Under the pieces are notes generated by a model, which ran no database searches, was not told the DNA's origin, and saw nothing but the letters and a program-made list of their open reading frames with translations. A stretch of DNA of 26,922 nt, taken from the NCBI GenBank assembly GCA_903876615.1, contig CAIRAS010000257.1, forward strand, positions 1 to 26,922. Reading direction: 5' to 3'. Made by a program: the position numbers and the translations under genes. Positions 12,229 to 20,729 of this stretch are shown piece after piece (the stretch's first letter is position 1; every line of letters starts with the position of its first letter). Source of the DNA: an uncultured Holophagaceae bacterium (GTDB taxonomy: Bacteria; Acidobacteriota; Holophagae; Holophagales; Holophagaceae).

Positions 12229-12870
12229 ATGAACGTCAGCTCCCATACGCTCAATCAGGCCGAGGCGGCCCTGTTGGACCTGGATCTGGAGGCCCTTCGC
12301 GGCCTGGTGGCAGAGGCCCTGACTATGAACCCCGAGCTGGAGGTCTTCGAGACCCTGGTCACGCCGGCGCTGGAGCGCATCGGCCGCTCCTGGGAGGACG
12401 GAGACCTGGCCCTGGCGCAGGTCTACATGGCCAGTCGGCTGGTGGAGCGCCTCGTGGAGGAACACCTCGTCGGTGGCCAGCTGGCGCACCGATCCCAGCC
12501 GCTCATGGCCATGGCCGTCCTCGAGGACCACCACATCCTCGGGAAGCGGCTGGTCCTCGCAAGCCTGCGCATGGGTGGCTGGGCGGTGGAGGACTGGGGC
12601 GTGGCGAGCGATCCCACGCTCCTGGCGGAGCGGGCACATTCAGCGGGCCTGGGCTTCCTGCTGATCTCCACGCTCATGGACCGGTCGGCCCGGCGCGTGG
12701 CGGAGGTCGTGCAGACGCTGCGGGCGCTGGGGGCCAGCACCCGGGTGGTCGTCGGTGGGGCGCCCTTCCGCCTGAACCCGGCGCTCTGCCGTGAAGTCGG
12801 GGCTGAGGCCACGGTTGCGGAAGCCTCGGCTGTCCCCGCCCTCCTGGCGAGTCTGGTGGGTGCGCCATGA
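12229..12870 (+). CDS. Corrinoid (vitamin B12)-binding protein, methyltransferase-subunit type
   Basis: 213 residues in the two-domain arrangement of MtaC/MtbC/MtgC-like corrinoid proteins. The N-terminal helical cap domain (about 10-85) contains LVTPALERIGRSWEDGDLAL. The C-terminal Rossmann-like B12 domain has D100-x-H102-x-x-G105 (EDHHILGK), where H102 would be the lower cobalt ligand. It also has the ISTLM segment (S-x-L motif) and VVVGGAPF for the nucleotide tail. Such proteins shuttle a methyl group between a substrate methyltransferase and an acceptor methyltransferase. I chose ATG 12229 with GGAGGG (12217-12222) six bases upstream. It overlaps the next gene by ATGA. No MtaB/MttB-type substrate methyltransferase or reductive activator is present nearby, so a sensory use of the corrinoid is possible. 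Confidence 0.88.
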   Translation: MNVSSHTLNQAEAALLDLDLEALRGLVAEALTMNPELEVFETLVTPALERIGRSWEDGDLALAQVYMASRLVERLVEEHLVGGQLAHRSQPLMAMAVLEDHHILGKRLVLASLRMGGWAVEDWGVASDPTLLAERAHSAGLGFLLISTLMDRSARRVAEVVQTLRALGASTRVVVGGAPFRLNPALCREVGAEATVAEASAVPALLASLVGAP

Positions 12871-13916
12871 TCACCCTGCTGAAGCCTGCCGAGCGCCTGG
12901 GCGCGGCGCTCTCCCACCAGGAGGGTGACCGGGTCCCCTTCTTCCTCGCCGTGACGCTGCACCCGGCCCGCGCCCTGGGGCTCTCGATCCAGGACTACCT
13001 CAGCGATCCAGAGGCGGTGGTCGAAGGCCAGCTCCGCCTGCGGCACAGCCTGGGGCACGACGCGGTGACCAGCTTCCTCCATGCCTCGGCGGAGGTGGAG
13101 GCCTTTGGGGGCGAGACCCTGTTCCGCACCGATGGGCCGCCCAACACCGGGGCGCCGCCCCTGACCCGCGCCTCGGCCATCGAGCGCCTGCAGGTGCCAG
13201 ACCCGACGCAGGTGCCCGCCCTCGCTCGCAGCCTGACCGTGGCCCGGGGCCTCAAGGCGCGTCTGGGCGACGACGTCCCGATCCTGGGCGGTCTGGTGGG
13301 ACCCCTGAGCTTGCCGGTGGTTCAGCTGGGCTTCGAACGCTACCTGGACTGGCTCATGGACGCTCCCGAGCTGATCCGGAAGCTCTGGCGGATCAACGAA
13401 GCCTTCTGCATCGCCTGGGGCAACGCCCAGTTGGCGGCGGGTGTGAGCGCCGTCGCCATCGCGGAGCCGCTGGTGTCTCCGACCCTCCTGTCGGGGGAGC
13501 TCATCCGGAAGGAGGGCCTGCCCGCCCTCCGCCGGGTGCGGGAGGGCATCCAGGGTGCGGTGGCCCTGTCCTCGGCTTCGGCCCCCATGGGCAGCCTCCT
13601 TCCGGAGCTGAGCGAGCTGGGCTTCGTGGGGCTGGCCCCCTCCTGCGACGAGTCCCTGGCCGATGCCAAGGCAATCCTCCAGGGGCGGGTGGCCCTGATG
13701 GGTGGGCTGAACGGCCTGGCCATGTGCCATTGGAGTCCCGCAGACGCTGAAGCCGCCGTAAAGGAGGCCCTCCGGGCGGCCGGCGCCGGCGGCGGCTTCG
13801 TCCTGGCGGAGCATCACGGCGAGATCCCCTGGTGCGTTTCGGAGGAGGTGCTGGTGGCTGTGGCGGAGGCCGTCCGGCGCTGGGGCGCCTATCCCCTGGA
13901 CTGGATCGCTGTGTGA
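12867..13916 (+). CDS. MtaA/UroD-family protein with degenerate zinc site
   Basis: 349 residues of the uroporphyrinogen-decarboxylase superfamily, methylcobamide:thiol methyltransferase (MtaA/CmuA) type. It opens with KPAERLGAALSHQEGDRVPF and has HSLGHDAVTSFLHASAEVEAFG, GLVGPLSLPVVQLGFERYL and IAEPLVSPTLLSGELIRK in the expected order. MtaA/MtbA bind zinc through H-x-C and a later Cys to activate the accepting thiol. At the H-x-C position this protein reads L234-S-S-A237, and near the later Cys it has E-H316-H317-G-E-I-P. The thiol-activating site therefore looks lost or remodelled. The HemE-type arginine motif is also absent. It is coupled to the corrinoid gene (ATGA) and to the DUF1638-like gene (GTGA). 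It could be a corrinoid-protein partner with a new acceptor, or a non-enzymatic sensor. Confidence 0.82.
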   Translation: MITLLKPAERLGAALSHQEGDRVPFFLAVTLHPARALGLSIQDYLSDPEAVVEGQLRLRHSLGHDAVTSFLHASAEVEAFGGETLFRTDGPPNTGAPPLTRASAIERLQVPDPTQVPALARSLTVARGLKARLGDDVPILGGLVGPLSLPVVQLGFERYLDWLMDAPELIRKLWRINEAFCIAWGNAQLAAGVSAVAIAEPLVSPTLLSGELIRKEGLPALRRVREGIQGAVALSSASAPMGSLLPELSELGFVGLAPSCDESLADAKAILQGRVALMGGLNGLAMCHWSPADAEAAVKEALRAAGAGGGFVLAEHHGEIPWCVSEEVLVAVAEAVRRWGAYPLDWIAV

Positions 13917-15127
13917 AGACCTCGCCCCTGCAGCTCCTGCTATGTCAGAGCCTCTTCGCAGAGGCCTGCGCGGCGCTGGAGCAGAACCCGGTGCCTGGGC
14001 TGCAGGTGCGCTGCCTGCCGCGCACCTGCACGCCGCGTCGAAGGGAGCTGCAGGCCCTGGTGGACGAGGCCGGGAGACTCAGTGCCCAGGCCCACGGGGC
14101 GGTGCTGGTGGGAGGGGGCTGCCTCGTGGCCCACCAGGGACTGCCGAAGGCCGCCGAACTCCAGCTGGCCTGCCGTTCGACCTGCTTTCACTTCTTCCTG
14201 CCCCCGGAGCAGGTGCAGTCCCTGCTCAGCCGAGGCGCCTACCTGGTCACCCCGGGCTGGTTGCTGGGCTGGCGGCAGGTGATGGCGGAGTGGGGGCTGA
14301 ACCAACGCGAGGCCCGCGCCCTCTTCGCCGAGTCTTGCACATGCATCGTGTTGCTGGAGGTCGGCGAGGACCCCCTGTCCCTTGAAAACCTGGCGGCTTT
14401 CGCCGCCTTCGTGGATCTGCCCGCGGAGCGCGTGAAGACGGGCCTCGCCCACCTCCGGGCCGCGCTGCTGGAGGAGGCCTGGGTGGCCAGGGAAGCCCAG
14501 ATGGCCCGGCAGGCCGCGGAGCTGGGCCAGGCTCGGCGGCGCATCGGCGAGCAGGCGGCCCTGGTCGATCTGGTCCAGCGCCTGTCGGCCACCATCGACG
14601 AGGACGCCATCGTGCGGGTGCTGCTGGAGGTGGCCCAGAGCCTCTTTGCGCCCGGCACCCTGCTCTGGCTCTCCCATTGGAAGGGTCAGTGGGGCGCGGC
14701 GCAGTGGCTTCCGTTGGGGCCGCCCCTGGCCGAGCTGGAGGCCGAGCTGCGGGCCTGCGCCGCGGGGGTGCAGCCCACGGCCGCCGGGGATGGGATGCTG
14801 CTCCGCTTCGAAGGGCCGGACGGTCCCATGGGGTTGCTGGGCATGGCGCAGCTGGCCTTCCCCAACCAGATCCCCGCCTACCTCGAAACGGCCCGGACCC
14901 TGCTGGACGCGGCGCAGCTCGCCCTGGGCAATGCCCGCAACCTGCACGGGATGATCCGGATCTGCGCCTGGTGCCGGCAGGTGAAGGATGAGGACAAGGG
15001 CTGGGGGACCTTTGAGGACTACCTCCACGAACAGAGCTCTGCGACCTTCAGCCACGGCATGTGCCCCGACTGCGCCGCCCGGCTGGCGGGGCAGGTCGAA
15101 ACCCTGAAGGCCGGCCCGGCTGGCTGA
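13913..15127 (+). CDS. DUF1638-like / GAF-like / C-terminal four-cysteine protein
   Basis: 404 residues with an unusual architecture. Residues 5-150 resemble DUF1638: LLLCQSLFAEAC, GAVLVGGGCLVAHQGL, LACRSTCFHFFL and GAYLVTPGWLLGW correspond to that family's conserved Cys, 'GYG.C..Gl', 'HDC' and 'G.y..t.GW' blocks. DUF1638 proteins are known neighbours of corrinoid methyltransferase genes. Residues about 185-215 are a helical linker and 220-340 read as a GAF-like sensor domain. The C-terminus has ICAWCRQVKDEDKGW, then EDYLHEQ and HGMCPDCAARL. This four-Cys module (C351, C354, C384, C387) is the one often found after PAS or GAF sensors. The GTG start at 13913 overlaps the UroD-like stop, and no good Shine-Dalgarno is visible, so coupling is likely. 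No output domain is visible. Function inferred: signalling protein reading the corrinoid pair. Confidence 0.75.
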   Translation: MKTSPLQLLLCQSLFAEACAALEQNPVPGLQVRCLPRTCTPRRRELQALVDEAGRLSAQAHGAVLVGGGCLVAHQGLPKAAELQLACRSTCFHFFLPPEQVQSLLSRGAYLVTPGWLLGWRQVMAEWGLNQREARALFAESCTCIVLLEVGEDPLSLENLAAFAAFVDLPAERVKTGLAHLRAALLEEAWVAREAQMARQAAELGQARRRIGEQAALVDLVQRLSATIDEDAIVRVLLEVAQSLFAPGTLLWLSHWKGQWGAAQWLPLGPPLAELEAELRACAAGVQPTAAGDGMLLRFEGPDGPMGLLGMAQLAFPNQIPAYLETARTLLDAAQLALGNARNLHGMIRICAWCRQVKDEDKGWGTFEDYLHEQSSATFSHGMCPDCAARLAGQVETLKAGPAG

Positions 15128-16931: not shown

Positions 16932-17150
16932 CTAGGCACGCTTGTGGGCATCGAGGTATTTCTGCAGCTCGCCCAGCCCAAAGGGTTTTGAGATGAGCGT
17001 AACCAGGGGATGGGCGTCCGCCAGGTTCACGGCGGCCTGATCGGCCCGCCCCGTGGCGAGCAGCACGGGCAGGGTCGGTCGCAGGTCGCGCAGCAGAGGA
17101 AGCGTCCCGCCACCGCCCATCCCGGGCATGTTCATGTCGAGGATCACCAT
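16932..17150 (-). pseudogene. Detached C-terminal half of the hybrid kinase receiver domain (frameshifted)
   Basis: This frame encodes MVILDMNMPGMGG, the phosphoacceptor-Asp loop of a response-regulator receiver. It continues through VLLATGRAD (switch Thr) and LISKPF (conserved Lys-Pro) to a normal C-terminal helix and TAG at 16932. It is the continuation of the receiver that begins at the end of the upstream kinase frame. Moving one frame at a GGG run (forward 17221-17223) rejoins the two parts as EAW-GHRPHLFPSGESVLEAL-AGPAETDMVIL. I do not think it is an independent gene, although translation from the ATG at 17150 cannot be excluded. Confidence 0.75.
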
Positions 17151-19588
17151 GTCGGTCTCGGCGGGTCCCGCCAGGGCCTCCAGGACGCTCTCGCCGCTTG
17201 GGAAGAGGTGGGGCCGATGGCCCAGGCCTCCAGCATGACCTCCATGGCGCAGCGGATCATCTCGTCATCGTCCACCACGAAGACCGTGAGCCCAGACAGC
17301 TGTGGCGTGACCTCTGGGGCGGGTGACTTGGTCGGCTGAGGGGTCGGTTCGATGGAGGGGAACCGGACTCGGACACGGGTCCCGGTCCCGGGTTGGCTGC
17401 TCAGGTCGATCTGGCCCTTGTGGGCCTTGACGATGGTGTAGACCATCGAGAGCCCCAGCCCGGTGCCCTTTCCGGTCTCCTTGGTGGTGAAGAACGGATC
17501 CATGGCACGGGCCAACACCTCCTCGGGCATCCCGATGCCGGTGTCTTCCACCAGGACTTCGACCCAGTCCTCGTCCACGTTCCGGGTCCTGAACAGCAGG
17601 CTTCCGCCGCCCTCCATGGCATCCACGGCGTTGACGCAGAGGTTCATGAGGGCGTTCGTCAGGGCGGTGGGGTCCCCGACGATGGGTCGCAGATCCGGAG
17701 CAAGGTCGAGGGTCAGGTCGACCCTGGCCAGAGTGGTGCGCTCCAGGAGGTTGGCCTGCTCGCGGATGATGGCGTTCAGGTCCAGTGCCTGCTCCTCGGC
17801 GGGGCTCTGGCGGGCGAAATTGAGCAGGCTCCGCACCATCCGGCTGCCCCGGCGGGTGGCGTTGACCACGATGCCGAGATCCCGGCTGAGGCTTGTGCCC
17901 GGGCTGCTCTGGCTCCGGTGCAGCTCCGCCAGGCCCAGGATTGCCCCCAGGACGTTGTTCATGTCGTGGGCGATGCCTCCGGCCAGAAGGCCGAGGCTCT
18001 CCATTTTCTGGGACTGCAGGAGCTGCTCCTCAAGCCGGGCCTTCTCGTCCAGAAACTGCTTGCGCTCGGTGATGTCGATGACAAAGACCGTCAGCCCACG
18101 CAGCGCGCCCTTCTCATCCACGATCGGGCTGTAGCGGTTCTCATAGACGATCCGGTTCGGCGGGTTGCCGTACTCCTCCACGAGGACCAGGTCCTCGCCG
18201 GCGAACACCCGGTCGAAGTTCCGCTTGGCCTTCTCTCGATCCTTGGGATCGAGAATCGCGTTCAGCATGCTCGTCCCGAGGCAGATGTCCACACCCCAGA
18301 TGGTCTTCATCACGGCCTTGTGCTCGGCCGTGAAGGTGGTGTAGCAGTAGTTCGTGTCCAGCGCGAAGATGACCACGCCCTTGGGGCTCTCCAGGATGGA
18401 GTTCAGCCGGGCGGACAGCTCCTGGGCCTGGAACTGGCTGGCCAGGAGGCTGTCCTCTGCGCGTTTGCCCGCCGTGATGTCGATGTTGGTGCCGATCATC
18501 CGCAGGGCGCGGCCGCTGGCATCCCGCCGGATCACCTTGCCGCGACCCAGGACCCACTTGCAGCTGCCATCGCGGGCGATGAACCGGTATTCCGCCTCGA
18601 ACCCTTCCCGGGTGCCCTGGATGCAGGCCTGATTGAGGGCCAGCAGCCGCGCCTGGTCGTGGGGATGGACGAAATCAGCCCAGTTCTTGGCGAGCCGTTC
18701 GAACTCGTCGGGCTCGAAGCCCAGCAGTCGCGCATAGGCAGGACTTAGATAGCACCCCCCGGTCGCCAGGTTCAAGTCCCAGAGGCCGTCGCTGGTGATC
18801 TCCATGGCGAGCCGGAAGCGTTCCTCGTTCTCGGCAACGGCCAACTCAGCCTGCTTGGCGGTGGTGATGTCCTGGAGAATCCCGACCTGCCGGAGGGGCT
18901 GGCCGTCCGGGTCGTGGTGAGTGTCCGCCCAGACCGCGATCCAGCGCAGCTCGCCATCGGCCGGCCGGTGGATCCGGAACTGCTTCGCGAAGGTCCGGTG
19001 GTTCTCCACCGACTCGCTTATCTGGGACAGCACCGCGTCCCGGTCTTCGGGATGGAGGAGGGCGGCCCAGCCTTCCCGGTTCTTCACGAAGTCGAGGTCG
19101 ATGCCCAGGAGCTCATCGACCCCGGGGGAGCTCTCCCAGGGCCAGGCTGGGTCCTGGAGGTTGGTGATGATGTGCCCCATCCCGGCCACCCTGAAGGCGG
19201 CCTGGAGGAGCTGGGAGGTCTGCTCCAGCTTCTGCTCCATCTGCCGACGACCCGAGATGTCCCGGATGATGAAGAGCACTTCCTTGGGCTGTCCCTCCGG
19301 GCCGACAAGGGTCCGGCCGTTCACCTCCACGGGAAAGGTGGTACCGTCCGCGCGCAGCCCGCGATACTCGTTCAGACCCGGATCCTCCCCCAGGAGGCGC
19401 CGCGAGAAGGAGGCCGCTGCCCGGGGCCGGTCTTCCGGAACGAGGAAATCGGTGACGGGGCGCCCCGCCTGCTCCTCCACGGAGGCATAGCCGAACATGG
19501 CCATGGTCGAGGGCGAGAACTCGAGGGTCTGGCCCTGCATGTCCACAAAGACGATTCCGTCGGGCAGATTTCTGAAATGGGACTGCAT
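17144..19588 (-). CDS. Multi-PAS hybrid sensor histidine kinase, receiver domain truncated by frameshift
   Basis: No signal peptide or membrane segment, so a cytoplasmic sensor. From ATG 19588 I see four PAS-type segments (about 5-112, 130-245, 255-375, 395-510), each ending in an 'xDIT/DIS..K/R' linker. Next come HisKA with phosphoacceptor H541 (GGIAHDMNNVLGAILGL) and a HATPase domain. The HATPase has an N-box (LMNLCVNAVDAM), G1 (EDTGIGM), F-box (DPFFTTK) and G2 (GKGTGLGLSMVY). A receiver starts at about 767 (LTVFVVDDDEMIRC), but the frame breaks after W789 and ends at 17144. One extra G in the GGG run at forward 17221-17223 would restore a protein of about 885 residues ending at 16932. The open frame above 19588 (to 20614) is antisense to the SRAP gene and not coding. 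Signal and partner are unknown. Confidence 0.88.
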   Translation of the reverse strand: MQSHFRNLPDGIVFVDMQGQTLEFSPSTMAMFGYASVEEQAGRPVTDFLVPEDRPRAAASFSRRLLGEDPGLNEYRGLRADGTTFPVEVNGRTLVGPEGQPKEVLFIIRDISGRRQMEQKLEQTSQLLQAAFRVAGMGHIITNLQDPAWPWESSPGVDELLGIDLDFVKNREGWAALLHPEDRDAVLSQISESVENHRTFAKQFRIHRPADGELRWIAVWADTHHDPDGQPLRQVGILQDITTAKQAELAVAENEERFRLAMEITSDGLWDLNLATGGCYLSPAYARLLGFEPDEFERLAKNWADFVHPHDQARLLALNQACIQGTREGFEAEYRFIARDGSCKWVLGRGKVIRRDASGRALRMIGTNIDITAGKRAEDSLLASQFQAQELSARLNSILESPKGVVIFALDTNYCYTTFTAEHKAVMKTIWGVDICLGTSMLNAILDPKDREKAKRNFDRVFAGEDLVLVEEYGNPPNRIVYENRYSPIVDEKGALRGLTVFVIDITERKQFLDEKARLEEQLLQSQKMESLGLLAGGIAHDMNNVLGAILGLAELHRSQSSPGTSLSRDLGIVVNATRRGSRMVRSLLNFARQSPAEEQALDLNAIIREQANLLERTTLARVDLTLDLAPDLRPIVGDPTALTNALMNLCVNAVDAMEGGGSLLFRTRNVDEDWVEVLVEDTGIGMPEEVLARAMDPFFTTKETGKGTGLGLSMVYTIVKAHKGQIDLSSQPGTGTRVRVRFPSIEPTPQPTKSPAPEVTPQLSGLTVFVVDDDEMIRCAMEVMLEAWAIGPTSSQAARASWRPWRDPPRPTW

Positions 19589-19650
19589 CCTCGGCCCTCT
19601 CAGAAACACCACCAAGCGCTTTGTTTCGGATAGATGATAGAGAAAAAAAC

Positions 19651-19680
19651 GATATAAATATTTTGTGCAATCGCTTTCAA
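19651..19680 (-). promoter_or_regulatory. Candidate promoter for the hybrid kinase in an AT-rich patch
   Basis: On the reverse strand TTGAAA (19675-19680) and TATATC (19651-19656) are 18 bases apart. They lie in the most AT-rich segment of the window (about 19615-19690), which includes a run of seven A on the forward strand. The position is 63 bases upstream of the kinase ATG. Predicted by eye. Confidence 0.4.
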
Positions 19681-19777
19681 TCAGTAATCCCTCCTCATCG
19701 GAGATCCTGGGAAAGGCTGAAGGACTGCACGCAAGGCACCGGGCGGGGCTCCGTGGTCGGGGGCTATCATGGGCGGC

Positions 19778-20443
19778 ATGTGCGGCCGCTACACCTTCAC
19801 CTTCGACGCCAAGTCCCTGGCGGAGGCCTTCGGCATGGTGCCGCCGGGCTTCCAGATCGTGAAGGGCTACAACCTCGCCCCGGGCCAGCATGTCGTCATC
19901 GTGCGCCCGGAGCGGAGCGGGCTGGTGGCCGATGTCGCGTTCTGGGGGCTCATCCCGAGCTGGGTGAAGGATCCGAACACGAGCCCCCGACCCATCAACG
20001 CCCGGGCCGAGACGCTGGAAGAGAAACCCACCTTCCGCTCGGCCTTCCGGCGCAAGCGCTGCCTCGTCCCGGCCTCGGGCTTCTACGAGTGGCAGGCCCA
20101 GGGAAAGACGAAGCAGCCCTTCTACATCCAGCCGAGCGAGGGGGACCTGTTCGCCTTCGCCGGCCTCCTGGAGGACTGGCAGGGGCCGGACGGCGAGGTG
20201 ATGGTGAGCACCTGCATCATCACCACCGAGCCCAATGCCCTGATGGCCGGGATCCACAGCCGGATGCCCGTGATCCTGCCGAGGCCCGCCTGGGGTGACT
20301 GGTTGGACCCCGCCGCCCAGACCCGGGACCTCCAGCGCCTGCTGGTGCCCTATCCCAGCGAGCTGATGCGCGCCCACCCGGTGAGCACCGCCGTGGGGAA
20401 TGTGCGGAACGATAGCCCGGAGCTGATCCTGCCCGTGGCGTGA
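19778..20443 (+). CDS. SRAP-family abasic-site / DNA-protein crosslink protein (YedK/HMCES type)
   Basis: SRAP proteins bind abasic sites in single-stranded DNA and form a protective thiazolidine crosslink through Cys2. The 221-residue product begins MCGRYTFTF, with C2 exposed after Met removal. It carries the other active-site residues: N74 in PINARAET, E104 in ASGFYEW and H160 in GIHSRMPVIL. I chose ATG 19778 over the in-frame ATG nine bases earlier, because Cys must be residue 2 for function. No strong Shine-Dalgarno is visible, only a G-rich stretch. It is divergent from the hybrid kinase, with no SOS partner gene adjacent. Identification is firm. Confidence 0.95.
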   Translation: MCGRYTFTFDAKSLAEAFGMVPPGFQIVKGYNLAPGQHVVIVRPERSGLVADVAFWGLIPSWVKDPNTSPRPINARAETLEEKPTFRSAFRRKRCLVPASGFYEWQAQGKTKQPFYIQPSEGDLFAFAGLLEDWQGPDGEVMVSTCIITTEPNALMAGIHSRMPVILPRPAWGDWLDPAAQTRDLQRLLVPYPSELMRAHPVSTAVGNVRNDSPELILPVA

Positions 20444-20612
20444 CCGGAACGCGAGGTTCTGGGCGGCGGAATACGGAACGGGCTGACCGTGGGGATGCGA
20501 CCGAAGGGCGTAGCCATCTAGTGGAAAATACCTAGGTGTCGCACCCGGACCCGTAGTATGGTGCAACACAAGAATTGTCAAACACAACAAACACGACCCC
20601 AAGGAGGACCCC

Positions 20613-20729
20613 ATGGCGGCGAACGTGACTACCTCAAACCGGTTCCTGATCGGCCTCTACCTGGTGGCAGTGGTCCTGTGCTCCACCCTACTCCTCAAGC
20701 TGATCATGTGGCTGGATGGGGTGAAGTAG
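20613..20729 (+). CDS. 38-residue single-span membrane protein
   Basis: A short frame from ATG 20613 to TAG 20729 with a near-perfect ribosome binding site, AAGGAGGA, starting at 20601 and four bases from the ATG. The product begins MAANVTTSNR and has one hydrophobic stretch (FLIGLYLVAVVLCSTLLLKLIMWL, residues 11-34). It ends in DGVK. That is a single transmembrane helix with short polar tails. I recognise no family. It stands alone between the SRAP gene and the chemoreceptor gene, both on the same strand. The coding call rests on the combination of ribosome binding site, hydrophobic pattern and clean stop. Confidence 0.7.
   Translation: MAANVTTSNRFLIGLYLVAVVLCSTLLLKLIMWLDGVK

Follow-up and report, generated by a model that had tools for sequence, protein, structure and literature searches.

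A corrinoid protein, UroD-family and DUF1638 gene module in an uncultured Holophagaceae bacterium, probably the input half of a sensory system

The window analysed here, a stretch of 26,922 nucleotides from an uncultured Holophagaceae bacterium (contig CAIRAS010000257.1), carries at 12229-15127 three plus-strand genes that encode, in this order, a corrinoid (B12) protein, a protein of the UroD/MtaA family and a DUF1638 protein. Judged from relatives in several phyla, the three products probably act jointly as an undescribed sensor and not as a metabolic enzyme; the best explanation, to which we give a probability of about 0.65, is that a corrinoid methyltransferase set has been turned into the sensory input half of a signalling system. 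A signalling role is well supported by comparative genomics, and the gene order, the coupling of the genes, the domain fusions, the motifs kept and lost and the absence of the metabolic genes looked for can be read directly in the sequences. A preliminary description of this DNA had proposed a system reading the state of a corrinoid, or methyl transfer to an unusual acceptor, and not classical demethylation; the idea of a corrinoid reader is strengthened by relatives whose DUF1638 is joined, by fusion or coupling, to kinases, diguanylate cyclases or an HD output. The coordinates, reading frames and ATGA and GTGA overlaps all proved correct when the sequence was rechecked.

A conserved module and its signalling outputs

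The first and second genes are joined by the ATGA overlap and the second and third by the GTGA overlap. The closest relatives of the window are Holophagaceae (nearest genome G001), the genus being perhaps Geothrix, and the search for the same three-gene order in other genomes, suggested in the preliminary description, found it in Acidobacteriota, Thermodesulfobacteriota, Chloroflexota and one Nitrospirota metagenome-assembled genome. The genome scan yielded 10 loci: five from Holophagaceae, one from an uncultured acidobacterium, and the others from Candidatus Magnetocorallium paracelense (Nitrospirota), Desulfohalobiaceae, Dethiosulfatarculus sandiegensis (Thermodesulfobacteriota; L081) and a Chloroflexi metagenome. 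When gene 2 was the sole query in 60 relatives, 21 places were recovered in 18 genomes, 20 of them in the genus. In 19 of these 20 a corrinoid gene precedes and DUF1638 follows; the twentieth (L004) has the corrinoid gene and is cut by a contig end. The link of gene 2 with DUF1638 is not circular, because gene 2 alone was the query. The last place (L018/L040), in another family, has a corrinoid gene and the activator RACo and no DUF1638.

For this analysis the loci were labelled as class A, the type of the window, with DUF1638, GAF and a four-cysteine module (Cys4) in one protein; class B, in which DUF1638-GAF is fused to an output or, in L065, ends in Cys4 with a kinase gene adjoining; class C, in which a stand-alone DUF1638 is followed by a kinase gene, or is fused instead to a kinase (L180) or an HD domain (L171); and class C' (L029, L071, L177, L183, L191, L196), which is like C with a different UroD subclade. 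The corrinoid gene was found in 47 of 50 class A to C' loci, a set that omits L179 (a duplicate of L086), the truncated L004 and loci without a UroD gene; in the other three (L065, L080, L181) the UroD gene reaches a contig end or lies no more than 410 bases from one. With spacing measured to the nearest in-frame start, which is biased to short gaps, the corrinoid and UroD genes overlap by four bases in 38/47 loci and are spaced by -14 to +10 bases in all. A four-base overlap joins UroD to DUF1638 in 5/5 class A loci, 28/29 of classes C and C' and 0/16 of class B, where the spacing is mostly -8 or -11 (range -59 to +28). Among the five class A loci (10 pairs per gene), dN/dS is 0.16-0.33 for gene 1, 0.08-0.20 for gene 2 and 0.16-0.31 for gene 3, and each of the three genes is by this measure under purifying selection. 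These ratios (0.08-0.33 overall), together with the gene order kept by homologues across phyla, argue that the module is not a chance arrangement.

Signalling architectures are present in 50 of the 52 loci with a UroD gene beside DUF1638 (the duplicate L179 left out), and the other two (L070, L075) keep the zinc pair discussed below. In the genus, Pfam recognises DUF1638 with GAF, HisKA, HATPase and REC in L026, DUF1638 with PAS and GGDEF in L025; in L028 and L029 the DUF1638 gene is followed by one for a PAS hybrid kinase. Outside the genus there are DUF1638 kinases (L079, L081, L087, L170 and L164, the last with its DUF1638 recognised by a custom profile and not by Pfam), DUF1638 with GGDEF (L080, L165, L168), with PAS only (L163) and with HD_5 (L171), and the class C kinase L180; in the GGDEF fusions the cyclase domain stands behind PAS or GAF, and the HD fusion, GAF-PAS-HD, was found once. 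The remaining outputs were assigned only by similarity to kinases or GGDEF domains already found. In L065, from an uncultured acidobacterium of another family, the gene for a DUF1638-GAF-Cys4 protein like that of the window is followed at once by a PAS kinase gene. Of the 16 proteins recovered with the L026 kinase as query, 15 combine PF07796 with kinase domains. The same input is joined to varied outputs, namely kinase, GGDEF and HD by Pfam and Cys4 by sequence, as expected of a signal-transduction input module.

Classical corrinoid metabolism left few traces in the genus. No substrate methyltransferase, activator or acceptor enzyme was found by a Pfam scan of the 13 neighbouring open reading frames of the window, where the preliminary description had likewise seen none, and across the 30 loci compared the module has no recurring neighbour that is a candidate substrate or acceptor gene. 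Counts of metabolic genes come from relatives in the genus (15 genomes, 85-100% complete): MtaB is present in 0 of 11 and MttB in 0 of 15 genomes searched, the absence that the preliminary description had proposed to check, and RACo is present in one of 15 (G022). The 24 UroD matches in 11 genus genomes comprise 13 module proteins and 11 that are HemE-like by score (one a fragment). A B12-binding_2 protein of about 1150-1240 aa, by its length probably methionine synthase, occurs in 10 of 11 genus genomes, and B12-binding_2 is also present in several shorter open frames (about 290-330 aa; G023, G030, G013 and others), possibly CarH-type regulators.

The tree, of 56 UroD rows, places all 39 module rows in a single clade (SH-aLRT 97) apart from the 17 others. 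The module rows represent 4/5 class A, 14/16 class B, 15/23 class C and 6/6 class C' proteins; the 17 others were hand-picked and four of them are long-branched, and the tree is of the 'quick' type with SH-aLRT as its only support. Class A is nested among class B (A+B, SH-aLRT 100; join with L081, 85). Moreover, the distances of the three proteins correlate in a mirror-tree comparison (r 0.75-0.88; 0 of 1000 permutations as high) over 47 loci, from which L183 (truncated), L179 and loci missing a gene or with two matches were left out and in which the metabolic L075 was kept; such a correlation is as expected for genes that travel together.

DUF1638 itself is more widespread. A DUF1638-GAF profile (E <= 1e-8) matched at least 27 of 395 genomes in the phylum of L081 and at least 17 of 301 in the phylum of L087; at least 3 and at least 6 of these, respectively, centre genomes included, span DUF1638 and GAF, and the rest match mostly through DUF1638 alone. 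Of the 77 genomes of the family, 29 match at E <= 1e-5, 8 of them over the full profile. Two divergent DUF1638 matches (L172 in G577, L173 in G618; phylum of L081) lie in long open frames, with no corrinoid or UroD neighbour found in the stretches fetched. A sensor-type DUF1638 apart from the module is the 782 aa DUF1638-PAS protein of the acidobacterial genome G120 (L066:9133-11481), around which profiles found no corrinoid or UroD gene in a 19.5 kb stretch.

The three proteins

The features of the three genes are collected in Table 1. Gene 1, which starts with ATG, matches B12-binding (E 6.7e-15) and B12-binding_2 (E 4.2e-12) in Pfam. Its D-x-H-x-x-G, which the preliminary description had reported as kept, was seen again and is retained in 46 of 47 module corrinoid proteins, the exception (L183) being truncated at a contig end. 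With both the B12-binding domains and this motif, gene 1 is predicted to bind a corrinoid. Its first structure matches are methyltransferase-type corrinoid proteins; those to photocobilin (E 1.9e-5) and CarH (E 6.8e-4) are weak. The NCBIfam models score 42 bits (methyltransferase corrinoid protein) and 37 bits (CarH), all below cut-off. Of the photoreceptor signature, GxxW is present in gene 1 of the window, and W-x9-EH, with the photoreceptor EH, is found in 0 of 47 module corrinoid proteins (one truncated). A cap motif, Q[VI]YM, occurs in all 19 class A and B proteins found and in 0 of 28 of classes C and C'; we take this cap to resemble methyltransferase corrinoid proteins, unlike the photoreceptor EH.

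Table 1. Position and evidence for the features of the three-gene module (numbering of the window)
Feature	Position	Strand	Evidence
Gene 1, corrinoid (B12) protein, 213 aa, helical cap and B12-binding domain (corrinoid binding predicted)	12229..12870	+	PF02607 and PF02310 over cut-off
Cobalt-ligating motif D-H-H-I-L-G (D-x-H-x-x-G), residues 100-105	12526..12543	+	sequence
Gene 2, UroD/MtaA-family protein, 349 aa	12867..13916	+	PF01208 (URO-D), E 1.4e-41
Degenerate H-x-C zinc site, S-S-A-S	13569..13580	+	alignment to 4AY7 and other module UroD proteins
H-G-E-I-P motif at the position of MtaA's third zinc ligand (Cys)	13815..13829	+	alignment
Gene 3, signalling protein, DUF1638, coiled coil, GAF and Cys4, 404 aa	13913..15127	+	PF07796
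DUF1638 domain with conserved C11, C39, C70, C91	13913..14500	+	alignments, domain model
Long helix (probable coiled coil), then GAF-like domain	14444..14947	+	predicted secondary structure, GAF fold matches
C-terminal Cys4 module, C-x2-C...C-x2-C	14963..15073	+	sequence

The best solved relative of gene 2 is the MtaA structure 4AY7, whose zinc ligands H-x-C...C align with S, S/A (depending on gap placement) and H, in agreement with the zinc-less MtaA-like partner of the preliminary description. An intact zinc site in homologous loci, which that description had set against its own proposal, was not seen: none of the 50 module UroD proteins has the H.CG pair, which two of three metabolic comparators (L070, L075) keep. 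The third-ligand Cys is kept in some class C UroD proteins, and HGE[IL]P is found in 21/21 proteins of classes A and B and 0/29 of C and C'. NCBIfam scores are far below the cut-offs (TIGR01463, 101 bits against 235; MtaA_Meth, 77 against 400). The loss of zinc is no proof of the loss of methyl transfer, because CdmB, as far as its report is available, is a zinc-free UroD-fold substrate:corrinoid methyltransferase (PMC13222342); on this precedent gene 2 may itself be the substrate methyltransferase that seems to be missing.

Gene 3 had been described as a DUF1638 domain joined to a sensor-like domain and a four-Cys module, and this architecture holds, the sensor-like part being a GAF by fold and the Cys4 being evident from sequence. 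DUF1638 (PF07796) is matched with E 8.4e-10 and 39.2 bits, above the cut-off of 27, which places the protein in the family. The GAF, missed by Pfam, matches 4g3k_B with TM 0.73 (target length) and Foldseek E 1.7e-3; the lowest Foldseek E values (about 1e-6) are to dual-sensor histidine kinase chains with TM about 0.3. The model of the whole protein has pLDDT 84.6 and pTM 0.57, with the Cys4 stretch at low confidence, and that of the DUF1638 domain has pLDDT 90.3 and pTM 0.86. In the latter C11, C39, C70 and C91 each lie 1-5 residues past a predicted strand, a modelled placement that fits a shared metal or cluster site without proving one. C70 and C91 are present in 31/31 rows of the DUF1638 alignment and C11 in 30/31, the other row being a piece cut by the chosen coordinates. 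C39 is present in 26/26 rows of the fused-sensor alignment and in 17/31 of the wider one, where the other 14 have His in the next column. A protein search with gene 3 (about 8,000 candidates scored, as in the search with the L026 kinase) gave 11 further full-length relatives (98-100% of length, 55-92% identity) and 4 more matches over 14-17% of the length; in the two of these that were inspected, the PAS-type proteins P0013 and P0014, the matched part is the Cys4 end, and both end in the same C-x2-C...C-x2-C motif.

Proposed mechanism and competing explanations

For complex formation, corrinoid binding, the sensed signal and the output in this genome we infer the following scheme. The gene 1 product would hold the corrinoid; gene 2, with its UroD fold and no thiol-activating zinc, would dock on it and bring a ligand or methyl donor to the cobalt (or away from it). 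In gene 3, the DUF1638 domain would bind the corrinoid protein and read the state of the cobalt, methylated or Co(II)/Co(I), perhaps via its four-Cys site, and the coiled coil and GAF would relay the change to the output. Relatives have kinases, diguanylate cyclases or an HD-domain protein as this output; in the window the Cys4 module would take that place, probably acting via a partner. The methyl version of the scheme is favoured because zinc-free corrinoid-loading UroD-fold methyltransferases are reported in the available part of PMC13222342 and because of the Q[VI]YM cap in classes A and B. A wider claim can be put forward tentatively, at somewhat less than even odds: that these modules form a multi-protein signalling class, in at least four phyla, in which UroD-driven methylation of cobalt is a switch for methylated compounds and is read by four-Cys DUF1638 domains driving kinases, diguanylate cyclases and HD proteins. 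That DUF1638 is linked to corrinoid proteins follows from two reports, each available in part: its fitness phenotypes in Phaeobacter inhibens are shared by a split methionine synthase and by a RamA-like activator (PMC5764234), and proteomics ties it to corrinoid proteins in a glycine betaine system (PMC12478193).

Several observations weigh against this explanation. Class A, the class of the window, has no catalytic output domain of its own, and the PAS-rich histidine kinase gene nearby (17144-20614) lies outside the three-gene operon. In the methyl version Co(I) must be regenerated, and RACo is mostly missing in the genus. The fold search with the DUF1638 domain gave no clear match, the NCBIfam scores of gene 1 barely separate the methyltransferase type from CarH, and the mirror-tree correlation is confounded, since shared ancestry alone would also yield it. 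Zinc-pair loss is not unique to the module, because the metabolic-type, RACo-linked comparator L040 is also without the pair. Neither is DUF1638 as such a mark of signalling, because 27 of 53 stretches around DUF1638 hits (8/13 and 19/40) are without a sensory module by profiles. Class B loci outside the genus were found by DUF1638 or DUF1638-GAF profiles, so their DUF1638 content was selected; their neighbouring corrinoid and UroD genes were not. Of the five class A genomes, two (G022 and G333, the latter that of L086) have a RACo gene, and RACo also lies upstream of the class C' modules L029 and L177; in these cases methyl transfer may be catalytic. Outside the family, each of five genomes with the module (G111, G329-G332) has 1-5 RACo matches, and G330 and G331 have MttB as well (22 and 3 matches), so metabolic and sensory sets can coexist; G120, with its DUF1638 sensor protein and no module found, has one RACo and one MttB. 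As side observations, the RACo of G022 stands beside a class C' module, about 2 kb from its DUF1638, and in G1033, taken as the same genome as G333, a second DUF1638 occurs at a distance of about 2 kb from where G333 has its RACo.

The main rival is a redox or oxygen sensor, in which redox state would be reported by the cobalt of the corrinoid or by a metal cluster bound to the four DUF1638 cysteines, gene 2 being only a scaffold closing the corrinoid site. The loss of the zinc pair throughout the module UroD proteins, with the ligating His changed to Ser in class A, speaks for it, as does the lack of the Co(I)-restoring RACo in 14/15 genus genomes; C11, C70 and C91 are conserved through DUF1638, with C39 added in the fused sensors. 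Yet purifying selection is stronger on gene 2 than on the other two genes, and HGE[IL]P, kept throughout classes A and B, is more than a scaffold seems to need; we regard this sensor as unlikely, though the most serious competitor.

A metabolic role is much less probable. It would have the set carry out methyl transfer or demethylation, with the DUF1638 protein only helping to reactivate the corrinoid and the signalling domains as regulatory decoration. All three families are known from metabolic systems, DUF1638 is thought to aid B12 reactivation (PMC5764234, part available), zinc-free CdmB can be active, and RACo adjoins the module in L029 and L177; against this stand the absence of a recurrent metabolic neighbour in 30 loci, the signalling outputs fused or directly coupled in classes B and C, and the genus genomes, which lack RACo (14/15), MttB (15/15) and MtaB (11/11). 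The soluble methyltransferases MtaA, MtbA and CmuA of the UroD superfamily are like gene 2 in fold family and in position beside a corrinoid gene, whereas gene 2 has lost the H-x-C pair, scores far below their NCBIfam cut-offs and is linked to signalling outputs. Substrate:corrinoid methyltransferases such as CdmB and O-demethylase MTI share the UroD fold and a corrinoid partner and can be zinc-free, as here; in the available part of the report on the Cdm system (PMC13222342) an MTII is present and the assays included an activator, whereas the scan of neighbours here revealed no MTII. The DUF1638 of the split methionine synthase and glycine betaine systems is the same Pfam domain, with the same tie to corrinoids and with C11, C70 and C91 in common; according to the same partly available sources it goes with a RamA-like activator, whereas in the module it is joined in one protein to a coiled coil, GAF and outputs, and most genus genomes have no RACo. 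Ordinary DUF1638 has His in the next column where the module sensors have Cys39.

A B12-dependent photoreceptor like CarH or the photocobilins, with gene 2 as an accessory, is the least probable, by a little: the weak gene 1 matches to both, the GxxW and the report that photocobilins too drive a diguanylate cyclase (PMC10979010, part available) speak for it, but W-x9-EH is missing throughout the module, the Q[VI]YM cap is present in 19/19 class A and B proteins, and a UroD partner is no part of the photoreceptors as described in the available portions of PMC11796333 and PMC10979010. The preliminary description had listed methylation, redox and light as states that might be read; the idea of reading a corrinoid stands and its light arm is weak, EH being missing in 47/47 module corrinoid proteins.

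Photocobilins are the nearest precedents for the proposed sensor, as far as the partly available sources go. In them AdoCbl photochemistry controls a diguanylate cyclase and a biliverdin domain is present (PMC10979010); like CarH, and as proposed here, they have a B12-binding domain governing regulatory outputs. Both are light sensors, with a signature of GxxW, EH, GxxH and GxxxP (PMC11796333) whose EH is missing here, and no UroD or DUF1638 partner is described for them in the portions available. No description of a signalling module of corrinoid protein, UroD and DUF1638 was found in the literature searched, part of which was available in extract, and a term search of the main text of a 2022 review on c-di-GMP stimuli (PMC8846402) found neither cobalamin, corrinoid or B12 nor DUF1638. 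If the proposal is true, sensing would proceed by organometallic chemistry, an enzyme's cobalt-methyl intermediate serving as the signal, and DUF1638, of unknown function and linked to B12, would gain a role as reader of corrinoid state, which is testable because the fused kinases and diguanylate cyclases offer ready assays. Named solely after their families, as corrinoid methyltransferase and uroporphyrinogen decarboxylase, the genes would falsely point to C1 or heme metabolism. Should CarH and photocobilins be grouped with the proposed system as B12-dependent signalling, the kind is already known and the novelty smaller.

Neighbouring genes

The PAS-rich histidine kinase gene stands near the module on the opposite (minus) strand. 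A kinase is also present within a few kb of the other four class A modules, again on the other strand. By codon usage the kinase of the window starts at about 19588, instead of 20614. Opposite the 5' part of its long open frame lies, on the plus strand at 19769-20440, a gene for SRAP (SOS-response-associated peptidase, PF02586).

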